Shown: one piece after another, positions 2,385 through 8,565 of the stretch
Numbering within the stretch: position 1 is the stretch's first letter
Layout of the letters: the number at the start of each line of letters is the position of its first letter
Assembly (NCBI GenBank): GCA_028706745.1
Contig: JAQTVM010000002.1
Coordinates: 33,823 to 97,822, forward strand
Length of the DNA: 64,000 bases
Reading direction: 5' to 3'
From: Candidatus Nanoarchaeia archaeon
GTDB lineage: Archaea; Nanobdellota; Nanobdellia; SCGC-AAA011-G17; GW2011-AR17
Translations under genes and position numbers: made by a program
Notes under the pieces: model-generated
What the model was told of the DNA's origin: nothing
The model's database searches: none
The model's input: only the letters and a program-made list of their open reading frames with translations

Positions 2385-3473
2385 TTAGTGATGTAGAGAA
2401 GGAGGCTGCACTTTTATAATTTCTATTGATTTATTGGTAATTGTTCTCCTTATCTTGAAAGTGTTTGCGTGTTTTGCATAAGCATTCCAGCCTTGCATTG
2501 ATTCAAGCAAATCCAAGGTGTTACTCCTATCTTCCTTGCATAGCTGTTTAAACATTTCAAGCCTTCTTTGCATCTTCCTTATGTTTCTTTTCCTTAAAAT
2601 GCGAAAATGGTAAAAGCACTTGAAGCCGAGCAAGTCAACCCCCCTTCCTAATGGAATTATTTTTGATTTCTGCGGATGTAGTTCAAGCAAAAGCTCATTC
2701 TGGAGGAATGAGCTTATTTCTGTTTTCCAGCTTTCAAGCTGGTTCTTGGAGTTATGGACTATTAAGAAATCATCTACATACCTAAGGTAATATTTCGCTT
2801 TCAGCCTGTGCTTAATGAATTGGTCAAGCTCGTTAAGATAAATGTTTGCAAAGAACTGGCTTGTGAGGTTGCCTAACGGCATTCCTTTGCCCTCTTGTTT
2901 TGCATTGTAATTATTGAGTATTTTTCTGATTAAATCCATTACATCTTTATCAGCTATTTTCTCGCTTATAATTTTCATCAGCTTTTCGTGGGAAACTGTT
3001 TCAAAATAGTGTTTTATATCAGCCTTAAGAGCATAGCCCTGCACATAATTCTTGTCTTGCAATCCCCTTATTTGCCTGCCATTGCAGGACACTTTTCGCT
3101 TGAAATAATCAAAACGCTGTATCGCTTTTAGATTGCCTTTCCCTTTCCTGTTGGCATAGCTGTCGTAAATGAAGTATTTTTCAAAAATCGGCTCTAATAT
3201 ATTGCAAATAGCGTGATGCACAACTCTGTCCCTGAAATCGCTTACTGAAATTCTTCTTGTTTTTGGGTCTCTTAGGATAAATTCATTTAACGGCAGAGGA
3301 AGATATATTTTTTGAATGAGTTCAACATGAAGCATTTGCAGGTTTTCAGCAAGATTCTTCTCAAATTGCATAACATAAGGCTTAAGTGTCTTATGCTTTC
3401 TGGCTTTCTTGAAAGCCAGCTCAAGATTTTCAATTGAGCAAATCTGCTCAAACAAGCGCTTGTATGTTTTCAT
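2385..3473 (-). CDS. DGR-type reverse transcriptase
   Basis: YLRYVDDF catalytic motif; GMPLGNLTSQFFANIYLNELD typical of DGR/retron-like RTs; adjacent TR/VR pair. Confidence 0.93.
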   Translation of the reverse strand: MKTYKRLFEQICSIENLELAFKKARKHKTLKPYVMQFEKNLAENLQMLHVELIQKIYLPLPLNEFILRDPKTRRISVSDFRDRVVHHAICNILEPIFEKYFIYDSYANRKGKGNLKAIQRFDYFKRKVSCNGRQIRGLQDKNYVQGYALKADIKHYFETVSHEKLMKIISEKIADKDVMDLIRKILNNYNAKQEGKGMPLGNLTSQFFANIYLNELDQFIKHRLKAKYYLRYVDDFLIVHNSKNQLESWKTEISSFLQNELLLELHPQKSKIIPLGRGVDLLGFKCFYHFRILRKRNIRKMQRRLEMFKQLCKEDRSNTLDLLESMQGWNAYAKHANTFKIRRTITNKSIEIIKVQPPSLHH

Positions 3474-3506
3474 TGCCGGGAATATGGAGCCCGAACGCAG
3501 AAGAGC

Positions 3507-3603
3507 TATTCCAAAAGCACGGCCGAGGTTGTCGTTGAGGTTGTTGTTGTTGCCGTTAAGGGCTGAATTGTTGTTAAGGTTGTTAGCCCAGAGGGCGCGG
3601 CTG
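3507..3603 (-). repeat. DGR template repeat (TR)
   Basis: 97-bp near-copy of 4021-4117; coding-strand sequence contains 11 AAC codons; all 12 differences from VR are at TR adenines. Confidence 0.93.
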
Positions 3604-3637
3604 TGTAGCTTGCCAACCGATAATAATCACTGATATG

Positions 3638-3665
3638 TCAAGAACACGCAAAAGCGTGTTCTTGA
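3638..3665. repeat. Perfect 12-bp stem, 4-nt loop hairpin between VR and TR
   Basis: TCAAGAACACGC-AAAA-GCGTGTTCTTGA. Confidence 0.8.
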
Positions 3666-3672
3666 GCATGCC

Positions 3673-3697
3673 AGAAATTTCGACATCCGAAATTTCT
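3673..3697. repeat. Perfect 10-bp stem, 5-nt loop hairpin between VR and TR
   Basis: AGAAATTTCG-ACATC-CGAAATTTCT. Confidence 0.8.
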
Positions 3698-3942
3698 AAG
3701 CACTTCACGATTTCACCTTTGCAGGCTACTCAGTGTTGCATCTGTATTGCACCCGAATGCCAAGTTTAAATAAAAGCATTCAGATTGGCAGGCGTGTAGC
3801 CCTTGCGCTACTTGCGCTCGGACAAAAAAGAAGAATAGAAAGAAAGAATAAAAAGTTTTGCTTTTATTTCCTGAAAACTTTAGGATTTACAGGGACATAC
3901 ATTAAGCCATTATGCTCAAAAGCAACTCCTTGCTTAAGCGCA

Positions 3943-4680
3943 TCAGCTATATTTGCTTCCAGCCCTGAAACCGCGCGGCGCCTGCGGCGCCGTTGCTCGC
4001 CCTTCGGGCTCGCTACGACGTACCCCAAAAGCACGGCCGAGGATGTCGTAGAGGTTGCTGAGGTTGCCGTAAAGGGCTGAATTGTAGTAAAGGTAGTCAG
4101 CCCAGAGGGCGCGGCTGAATGCCTTGCCCTGCTCTTTGGCATGCGCCTTGTCAACAACATATAATGGAACATTTTTTATGCCATTTTCCCTCAAAAACCT
4201 TCCGTAATTGTCAGCTTCGTCTCCAAACAGGAAAGCTGTAACAGCTTCCTTGCTGAAAGCGTCTGTTGAAATATTGCTTGGCACATCTTTTCTTTTCAAA
4301 AGCAAAACCTTGCCTTTGTGCTTTGCGCCTCCCTGAAGCGATTCAACAGCAACATCATTAAGGAAATATTCCCTAAATGGATTCGCCCTGTGGCAGTCTG
4401 TTGCATGCTTTGCAGCAGAAGGAGATTGCAGTAAAGGATTAAATGCCCCTGATGCAACAAGAATGTCCCCATTTGGCAAATAATTGAAATTCTCAGCAAG
4501 CCATGACCATTGTCTGCTTACAGCATGATTCGCCCCGCCAAGCATTCTTGCCTCGGCAAGCTGCTTTGCTGTTATCATTTCAAGGTTTTCTGCCCTGAAC
4601 TCATCAACACATCTGTCAAAAGCTCCTTGAGCCTGATAGACTTCAAGTGCCTCGCCCTTTGGTATTACGTATTTTTCCAT
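3943..4680 (-). CDS. DGR target (variable) protein with C-terminal variable region
   Basis: Contains VR: LWADYLYYNSALYGNLSNLYDILGRAFGV, versus TR-encoded LWANNLNNNSALNGNNNNLNDNLGRAFGI. Confidence 0.85.
   Translation of the reverse strand: MEKYVIPKGEALEVYQAQGAFDRCVDEFRAENLEMITAKQLAEARMLGGANHAVSRQWSWLAENFNYLPNGDILVASGAFNPLLQSPSAAKHATDCHRANPFREYFLNDVAVESLQGGAKHKGKVLLLKRKDVPSNISTDAFSKEAVTAFLFGDEADNYGRFLRENGIKNVPLYVVDKAHAKEQGKAFSRALWADYLYYNSALYGNLSNLYDILGRAFGVRRSEPEGRATAPQAPRGFRAGSKYS
4021..4117 (-). repeat. DGR variable repeat (VR)
   Basis: Aligned without gaps to TR 3507-3603; 85/97 identical, all substitutions adenine-specific on the coding strand. Confidence 0.93.
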
Positions 4681-4887: not shown

Positions 4888-6231
4888 ATGGATGAAATAA
4901 CCCTCAGGCTGATGGAAAACCTGAATGAGCACTGGGCGCTCGGCAAGGTGCCTGAAAGGCTGAAAGAAAAGATAAAGCGAGAAAAATTCCAGGACATAAT
5001 AAAATATCTTGATGAAAGGCAGATAATAACAATAGTAGGGCTTAGAAGAACCGGGAAAACAACGCTCATATTCCAGATGATGGAGCACCTTATAGAAAAG
5101 GGCGTAAAGCCAAAAAACATCCTTTATTTTTCTTTTGATGAGCTGACAAGCAAAAGCCCCGAAACTATAGATGAGATTATACAGCATTTTGCGTCAAACA
5201 TTTCAAAAAGCAGCATGGAAAGCAAAGAAAGAAAATACATATTTTTTGACGAAATACAAAAAGTTGAGAATTGGCAGGCTGTTCTAAAGAGGTATTATGA
5301 CCTGAAATACAGCCTGAAATTTATAGTTTCAGGCTCTGAAAGCTTGTTGCTCAGAAAGAAAACCAAGGAAACAATGGCAGGGAGAAGCTTTGATTTTCTC
5401 CTTACCCCTATGTCTTTCAGGGAATACCTTGAATTCAACGGCGTAAAAGCGGAAAAAGGCACATGCAGGGAGATTTATGCAAAAACCATTGCGCACCATG
5501 CAAAGCTGAGAGGGATGTTTGAGGAATTTCTGCTTAGAGGCGGCTTTCCTGAAACAATAGGCATGGATACACACAGGCTTCAGGAATACCTTTATGAATC
5601 TGTGCTTCAGAAAATCGTGTTCAGCGACATCCCCTCTTTGTTTAATATTTCAAACCCTGAAATGCTGGTAAAAATTATGGAGCTTGTTTCAAAGAACACG
5701 TCACAGCTTTTTGAGATAGGGCAGATTTGCGAAGTTTTTAATATATCAAGAAACTCAGCTTCAGCATACCTTTCTTACCTTGAAAACTCTTTCCTTATAT
5801 CGATATCATTCAATTACACGAAAAGCAAAGTAAAACAGCTAAGAACAAGCAAAAAAGCATACATAAATGATACAGGAATTGCAAACAGCCTTTTAAAGCA
5901 ATTACATATTGAGTCCCCTGAATATCTTGGGCAGCTAGCTGAAACACAAGTTTACAATGAAATCTCAAGAAGGTGCCAGGCATTATTTTGGCGGGACAAA
6001 ATGCAGCATGAAGTTGATATAATCGTCAAGAACAAAAAAATAATCCCTGTGGAAGTAAAATACAGGGCAACAATAAGCACAGGGGATATTAAAAATACGG
6101 AAATTTTTATGGAAAAAAACAATGTTGTAAAAGGGATAATTGTCACAAAAGACCTGTTCCGGGAAGAAAAAAGCCTTGTATATATCCCGGCGTGGCTTTT
6201 TCTCTTGTCTTACGAAACATTAATAGAATAA
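4888..6231 (+). CDS. AAA ATPase with DUF4143-like C-terminus
   Basis: Walker A GLRRTGKTTL; FFDEIQKVENW; C-terminal nuclease-like HEVDIIVKNKKIIPVEVKYR. Confidence 0.8.
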   Translation: MDEITLRLMENLNEHWALGKVPERLKEKIKREKFQDIIKYLDERQIITIVGLRRTGKTTLIFQMMEHLIEKGVKPKNILYFSFDELTSKSPETIDEIIQHFASNISKSSMESKERKYIFFDEIQKVENWQAVLKRYYDLKYSLKFIVSGSESLLLRKKTKETMAGRSFDFLLTPMSFREYLEFNGVKAEKGTCREIYAKTIAHHAKLRGMFEEFLLRGGFPETIGMDTHRLQEYLYESVLQKIVFSDIPSLFNISNPEMLVKIMELVSKNTSQLFEIGQICEVFNISRNSASAYLSYLENSFLISISFNYTKSKVKQLRTSKKAYINDTGIANSLLKQLHIESPEYLGQLAETQVYNEISRRCQALFWRDKMQHEVDIIVKNKKIIPVEVKYRATISTGDIKNTEIFMEKNNVVKGIIVTKDLFREEKSLVYIPAWLFLLSYETLIE

Positions 6232-8034: not shown

Positions 8035-8565
8035 ATGCAGGCAGTAAAAACAATAGCAGAGCCTGAGCTTTCAGGCATTTTAAGAGTAGGGCAAAGGGCT
8101 TTCGGATATTTGGAAAAGAATTCCGGGAAAAAGTACCTTGAGACATTAAGCCTTGCATGCTGTATAGGGCTTTATGCGAGAAGCGAAAATGGGATAGAAG
8201 CGCTGAGCCATATAGACTGCGGCGGAAATACAGGCATAAGAGCTGATTCGCAGGCTTTAATTTTCCTCGATTATATGAAACATAAAGGGATGAATCCTTA
8301 TGAGATAATCATAGTAAGAAGCGCAACAGCGGTTCCTGAAAGTATCTCCAAGATATACAATGTGCTGGAATCAAGGAAGTGCAGAAATATCCGCGGAATA
8401 AAGGGAGGGGATTCAATTGACATTCTTTTTGAGAATGGCCGCCCTTATTTTGTTGAAAACGCAGAAAAGCAAAAGAAGGATTGGCAAACTATCCTGGACA
8501 TGCTAAACAGGCAGGGGCTTAAGTGCGAGAATACAGGCGAGATAATCATACCTGAAAACATTTAA
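8035..8565 (+). CDS. Uncharacterised protein, possible CheD-like fold
   Basis: SLACCIGLYARSENGIEALSHID resembles the Cys/His pair region of CheD-type deamidases. Confidence 0.4.
   Translation: MQAVKTIAEPELSGILRVGQRAFGYLEKNSGKKYLETLSLACCIGLYARSENGIEALSHIDCGGNTGIRADSQALIFLDYMKHKGMNPYEIIIVRSATAVPESISKIYNVLESRKCRNIRGIKGGDSIDILFENGRPYFVENAEKQKKDWQTILDMLNRQGLKCENTGEIIIPENI

Follow-up and report, generated by a model that had tools for sequence, protein, structure and literature searches.

A genuine diversity-generating retroelement (DGR) is present in the window, by which we mean the whole 64,000-nucleotide stretch of DNA analysed here, and it adds one more member to an archaeal kind already known. 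The novelty lies in the architecture of its RNA: judged from sequence, RT-16, an orphan family in Rfam, forms the 5' half of archaeal DGR template RNAs, an assignment that is new as far as could be checked. Among microbes, targeted hypermutation is mainly the work of DGRs, and what is known of the mechanism has been worked out largely in a single phage, whose DGR uses Avd and a 3' spacer RNA. The window forms the last 64 kb of contig C24 in an assembly of 1.24 Mb and 32 contigs.

Template repeat, variable repeat and reverse transcriptase

The protein-coding and repeat features of the element are as follows.

2385-3473, minus strand: DGR reverse transcriptase (RT) ORF, 362 aa, YVDD active site, LGNLTSQ motif
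3507-3603, minus strand: DGR template repeat (TR), copied part about 3511-3603
3508-3512, minus strand: IMH* GGAAT at the TR 3' end, signature as in PMC4372165
3943-4680, minus strand: target protein ORF, 245 aa, C-type-lectin fold like the nanoarchaeal DGR protein 5ioo
3976-3992, minus strand: second post-VR hairpin, CGGCGCC-GCA-GGCGCCG
3999-4009, minus strand: post-VR hairpin GCCC-GAA-GGGC, within the target ORF
4021-4117, minus strand: variable repeat (VR) in the target ORF, target residues about 190-220
4022-4026, minus strand: IMH GGGGT at the VR 3' end

An earlier note on this DNA had claimed an ungapped 97-bp alignment of TR 3507-3603 with VR 4021-4117 and had taken all of the differences as an adenine signature. 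When the alignment was redone, these positions and the number of mismatches, exactly 12, were reproduced, and every mismatch was an A on the TR coding strand (P = 1.2e-7, hypergeometric, with 30 A among the 97 TR bases); a recount likewise gave 9 of the 11 AAC codons of TR as altered in VR. Two of the 12, however, are not due to mutagenesis. The change of AA in TR to GG in VR at 3509/3510 is that between IMH* GGAAT and IMH GGGGT, and since GGAAT at the TR end against GGGGT at the VR end is a fixed difference in nearly all DPANN DGRs compared, 10 mismatches are left as mutagenesis, all at TR adenines (P = 1.0e-6). The adenine bias was examined in 73 TR/VR pairs besides that of the window: mismatches fell at TR adenines in 735 of 810 cases for 54 pairs from related loci (50 archaeal) and in 251 of 264 for 19 further pairs. 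VRs within the same genome and genus were also checked, and vary mainly at TR adenines.

The RT adjoins TR, with about 30 nt between TR and the RT gene, and carries the YVDD and LGNLTSQ motifs as claimed. The closest solved relative of this RT is 8ub7_A (328 residues; E 2.5e-57), which from its length we take to be BPP-1 bRT, the Bordetella DGR RT, and PHROG 1423 is matched with E 3.7e-121.

VR sits in the 3' end of the target gene and ends about 26 codons ahead of the stop. The target protein fell into no family of Pfam, PADLOC or NCBIfam, and fold comparison was therefore used. The AlphaFold2 model, made from 12 related targets (pLDDT 86.9, pTM 0.84), matched 5ioo_A in Foldseek (E 4.5e-8, TM 0.65/0.75) as the only strong PDB match. 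5ioo is a nanoarchaeal DGR variable protein of C-type-lectin fold (PMC5006420), sharing the fold with the window target at a sequence identity of 13%. The variable target residues are located in the model between and beside two C-terminal strands, 188-194 and 216-222, and the protein probably serves in binding host cells or other partners. Hairpin stems of at least 5 bp after VR were found in 60% of loci, as against 11% of shuffled ones, a family-wide excess.

The TR/VR signature, the closest RT relative and the match of the target to 5ioo together indicate that the element is a genuine DGR and belongs with the nanoarchaeal ones reported in 2015. The central claim of the earlier note, a DGR in an archaeal (DPANN) chromosome, thus stands, with adenine-specific TR/VR differences, a DGR-type RT, a lectin-fold target, the IMH/IMH* pair and post-VR hairpins.

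A second target on contig C13 matches the same TR (VR at 8106-8195). The encoded protein is 50% identical to the window target, and its VR differs from TR by substitutions at adenines only, apart from indels (-6 and +3 nt) that keep the frame; DGRs are reported to slip at AAC repeats by lengths that are multiples of three (PMC12875486). Contig C15 carries a second DGR (L012, 7076-13327, minus strand) with its own RT and TR and with four tandem targets matching one TR. These arrangements agree with the nanoarchaeal DUSEL4 DGRs (PMC4372165) in the presence of several DGRs per genome, in IMH TGGGGT against IMH* TGGAAT, in the trinucleotide-loop hairpins in the target gene, and in orphan targets and VRs away from RT. 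Unlike the DUSEL4 description, one TR was matched here to a remote target, the second DGR serves four tandem targets, and the interval between RT and target is shown as structured RNA.

Two other readings of the element were weighed. That the RT derives from a group II intron, a retron or an antiviral DRT system, the repeats being incidental, has a negligible probability: the RT does show weak group II similarity (159 bits against a cut-off of 300) and some similarity to DRT and retron profiles, but all such scores stay under the curated cut-offs, the best group II RT structure (E 2.2e-35) is about 22 orders of magnitude weaker than BPP-1 bRT, no intron RNA was found by the Rfam search, and the TR/VR differences are adenine-specific. 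The profile scores thus place the RT with DGR RTs and not with those of group II introns or retrons. The element might instead be decayed or dormant, its RT, TR and VR being relics and the differences old, and the 69-nt double-hairpin insert in the RNA domain (see below), which weakens the RF03019 match, would fit such a state. This is improbable, however, since the RT and target ORFs are intact, neutral decay would have added non-A changes to TR and VR, which differ at adenines only, and the C13 VR, in-frame indels aside, differs from the same TR only at A.

Some further observations were made on the other targets of this genome and on relatives of the element. A family-less gene, probably for a coiled-coil protein, lies directly upstream of both the remote target (L011:6078-7289, plus strand) and the four-target array (L012:13328-14380, minus strand); the two copies are 39% identical, and the product may be a partner of the variable proteins. 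In genome G015 (L036/L037), a VR compared with the TR of the other DGR gave 15 of 15 mismatches at A, while against its own TR it gave 16 at A and 5 others, a pattern that suggests cross-talk between DGRs.

The RT-16 domain 5' of the template repeat

Most of the 340 nt between target and TR belongs to a structured region, the 5' part of the template RNA, for which the following features were mapped.

3600-3827, minus strand: 5' structured template-RNA domain of Rfam RT-16 type, running up to the start of TR
3637-3705, minus strand: insert of 69 nt in the RT-16 domain, made of two hairpins whose stems (3638-3665 and 3673-3697) are perfect
3848-3854, minus strand: TATA-like TTTTTAT (tentative), about 25-31 nt upstream of the RNA 5' end

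The window copy is under the gathering cut-off of the Rfam model RF03019 (33.6 bits against 50), and was detected with 57.7 bits (E 1e-11) by R1, our own covariance model built from 30 RT-16 copies. In the first two scans RF03019 was above cut-off directly 5' of TR in 28 of 30 further archaeal DGR loci (12/14 and 16/16), and it matched the second DGR of the same genome with 85 bits. One RT-16 copy was found by R1 in most other archaeal DGR loci, none in the bacterial DGR loci L131-L135 and L137-L140, and among 80 IMG/VR DGR loci there were two real matches only, both with archaeal-like RTs. About 100 related cassettes underlie the comparisons on RNA reported here.

RT-16 runs up to the start of TR: the offset between its 3' end and the TR 5' end has a median of -1 nt (interquartile range -4 to 0, 55 loci), and this contact is kept where the RT gene sits on the opposite strand, indicating that RT-16 is part of the template RNA and not of the RT message. 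Helices P1/P2 of RT-16 are 97% paired, with a covariation of 0.857 against 0.294 for shuffled and at most 0.234 for slid alignments. TATA-like words peak 26-40 nt upstream of RT-16 (69 loci). RF03019 and the template RNA considered here share the 5' domain; the Rfam model, however, stops at the TR 5' end and includes a local 5' hairpin but not the long-range helix described below.

The RT-n families of Rfam probably stem from Weinberg et al. 2017. No literature linking RT-16 or RT-14 to DGRs was found in a search made without the original RT-16 description, so that priority is provisional. As to the 69-nt insert, a copy of 85% identity exists at G000:C30:57101-57160 (L261), near the start of another apparent ORF, and the insert therefore looks like a small palindromic repeat element.

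Pairing of the RT-16 5' end with the TR 3' flank

A two-part helix, absent from the Rfam model, is predicted to link the 5' end of RT-16 with the 3' flank of TR, as supported by covariation and by an out-of-sample test. Its strands in the window are the following.

3489-3498, minus strand: outer long-range helix, 3' strand GCGUUCGGGC, 15 nt ahead of the RT start codon
3501-3508, minus strand: inner long-range helix, 3' strand UAGCUCUU, TR flank
3797-3804, minus strand: inner long-range helix, 5' strand AAGGGCUA
3814-3823, minus strand: outer long-range helix, 5' strand GUCCGAGCGC, probably close to where the RNA begins

For the inner helix, the RT-16 5' strand NNRRRCYA is complementary to URRYYYNN just 3' of TR. 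Among 44 loci, 301 of 352 cells were paired, compared with 246 +/- 5 (maximum 265) in 5000 across-locus shuffles and with 88 to 185 when the strands were slid by 1-6 columns; position 2 was T-A in 30 loci, C-G in 13 and T-G in one, and unpaired in none. The long-range duplex energy was -22.8 for native and -15.3 for swapped strands. The helix continues in the outer segment, where UGUCCYRGC pairs with GCYRGGACA (native -12.0, swapped -8.57 +/- 0.41 kcal/mol). As the shuffles do not fully control for shared ancestry of the sequences, it is of note that the slides and the second data set agree with them.

This second, out-of-sample set was collected by a search with RF03019 only, which gave 27 carriers in 140 genomes of the class and no match in 14 control genomes. 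From these, 26 loci were taken, 2 of which repeat earlier ones, and a DGR RT lies within 1.5 kb in 22 of the 26; when two archaeal-like viral loci were added to the 24 new ones, TR/VR pairs were detectable in 19 of these, the 19 further pairs counted above. Both strands were defined in 14 loci: of 112 inner-helix cells 92 were paired, compared with 75.6 +/- 3.4 and at most 88, and the duplex energy came to -22.8 against -13.6 +/- 1.2, the outer segment alone being weaker (-10.0 against -7.1 +/- 0.75).

Pairing in the local 5' hairpin of the Rfam model likewise exceeds chance, and this hairpin and the long-range helix are in competition. Folding of the whole RNA favoured the long-range pairing in 27 of the 44 loci and the local hairpin in 2. 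In the thermodynamic fold of the window copy the inner helix has a probability of only 0.02, although its strands, taken in isolation, pair at -26.8 kcal/mol. A GGCUACA copy just ahead of TR was considered separately as a partner of the TR 3' flank and was rejected, because it showed no covariation with this flank.

These data bear on two further explanations. If RT-16 were a separate regulatory RNA, such as a 5' UTR element of the RT gene or an attenuator, outside the working template RNA, it would be expected where it is found in most loci, upstream of RT on the same strand; its 5' end, however, pairs with the TR 3' flank, and in L039, L090, L095, L101, L116 and L118, which have RT on the other strand, its place immediately 5' of TR is unchanged, so that this explanation is very improbable. 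Somewhat more weight, within the range of the unlikely, is due to the view that the outer helix is mainly a transcription attenuator or processing signal and not part of the template fold. In the window, about 15 nt separate its 3' strand from the RT start codon that follows, and its competition with the local 5' hairpin is switch-like, but the helix is kept in the convergent loci L039, L090, L095 and L101, where no RT gene follows on that strand.

Proposed mechanism and comparison with bacterial DGRs

Built on the TR/VR signature, the RT type, the target fold, the position of RT-16 and the conserved base pairing, the explanation that we consider highly probable is a DGR with a self-closing template RNA, composed of RT-16 and TR, and with RT-driven miscopying of adenines into VR; activity in vivo, the RNA ends, RT binding without Avd, the priming site and the target role are what we infer within it. 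Transcription would probably start a little upstream of 3823, take in the RT-16 domain and TR, and stop near 3489, giving a template RNA of about 340 nt. Its 5' end would pair with the flank just 3' of TR by way of the two-part helix, giving a ring-like closure in which TR is left as a loop and the unpaired GGAA of IMH* adjoins the helix. RT (2385-3473) would then bind the template RNA, begin cDNA at the TR 3' end and miscopy the template adenines. A candidate for the junction of cDNA and RNA is CYACA, a near-invariant motif next to the helix. With IMH GGGGT and the hairpins that closely follow VR as guides, the cDNA would take the place of VR, and about 11 AAC-coded residues would be rewritten on the binding face of the lectin fold. 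The same TR would also have supplied the second target on contig C13.

The best-known DGR, that of BPP-1, is alike in RT family, adenine mutagenesis, IMH/IMH*, post-VR hairpin and lectin-fold target. It differs in having Avd and a 3' spacer, where the archaeal DGR has a conserved domain 5' of TR and no Avd was found. Avd is a typical accessory protein of DGRs, though not a universal one. The bAvd profile PF22296 gave nothing over cut-off in 18 genomes of the family; a weak bAvd-like match elsewhere in the genome (G000:C29) was rejected, being a PF05635 protein. ORFs of Avd-like size and charge have been marked between RT and target (Paul et al. 2015, PMC4372165), but in the loci examined here this interval is made up of the RNA gene and TR. 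The role of Avd could be filled by an unrelated protein encoded elsewhere.

BPP-1 has its structured spacer on the 3' side of TR, where it both recruits the RT-Avd complex and serves in priming (PMC12875486). The Rfam family RT-14 (RF02921) begins at the TR 3' end and runs toward RT in six bacterial or phage DGRs (L134, L160, L167, L177, L184 and L186; start no more than about 12 nt from the TR 3' end), and is thus probably the bacterial/phage spacer RNA. Both RT-14 and RT-16 abut TR but on opposite sides; with RT-14 and the BPP-1 spacer 3' of TR and RT-16 5' of it, the archaeal RNA domain is placed on the opposite side of TR. The RT-16 fold may accordingly be pictured as a substitute for Avd plus the bacterial spacer. 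We put forward tentatively, stopping just short of favouring it, the possibility that DPANN DGRs are a distinct mechanistic class, in which, without Avd or a 3' spacer, the template RNA with its RT-16 domain and TR-closing two-part helix recruits RT and positions the TR 3' end for priming, the competition of closing helix and local 5' hairpin perhaps serving as its on-switch.

Should archaeal DGRs use a self-closing RNA, a function would be given to two orphan Rfam families, RT-16 in archaea and RT-14 in bacteria. Detection of DGRs would be improved, since TR could be located without VR or an adjacent RT and remote templates could be found, and a protein-light system would be available for reconstitution.

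In the convergent loci L080, L119, L095, L039, L101, L121, L118, L116 and L090, the RNA and TR lie downstream of RT on the opposite strand, and several of the RT ORFs in these loci are extended to about 490-570 codons. Within the window itself, an ATPase gene with AAA_14 and DUF4143 domains (4888-6231, plus strand) is divergent from the target gene.
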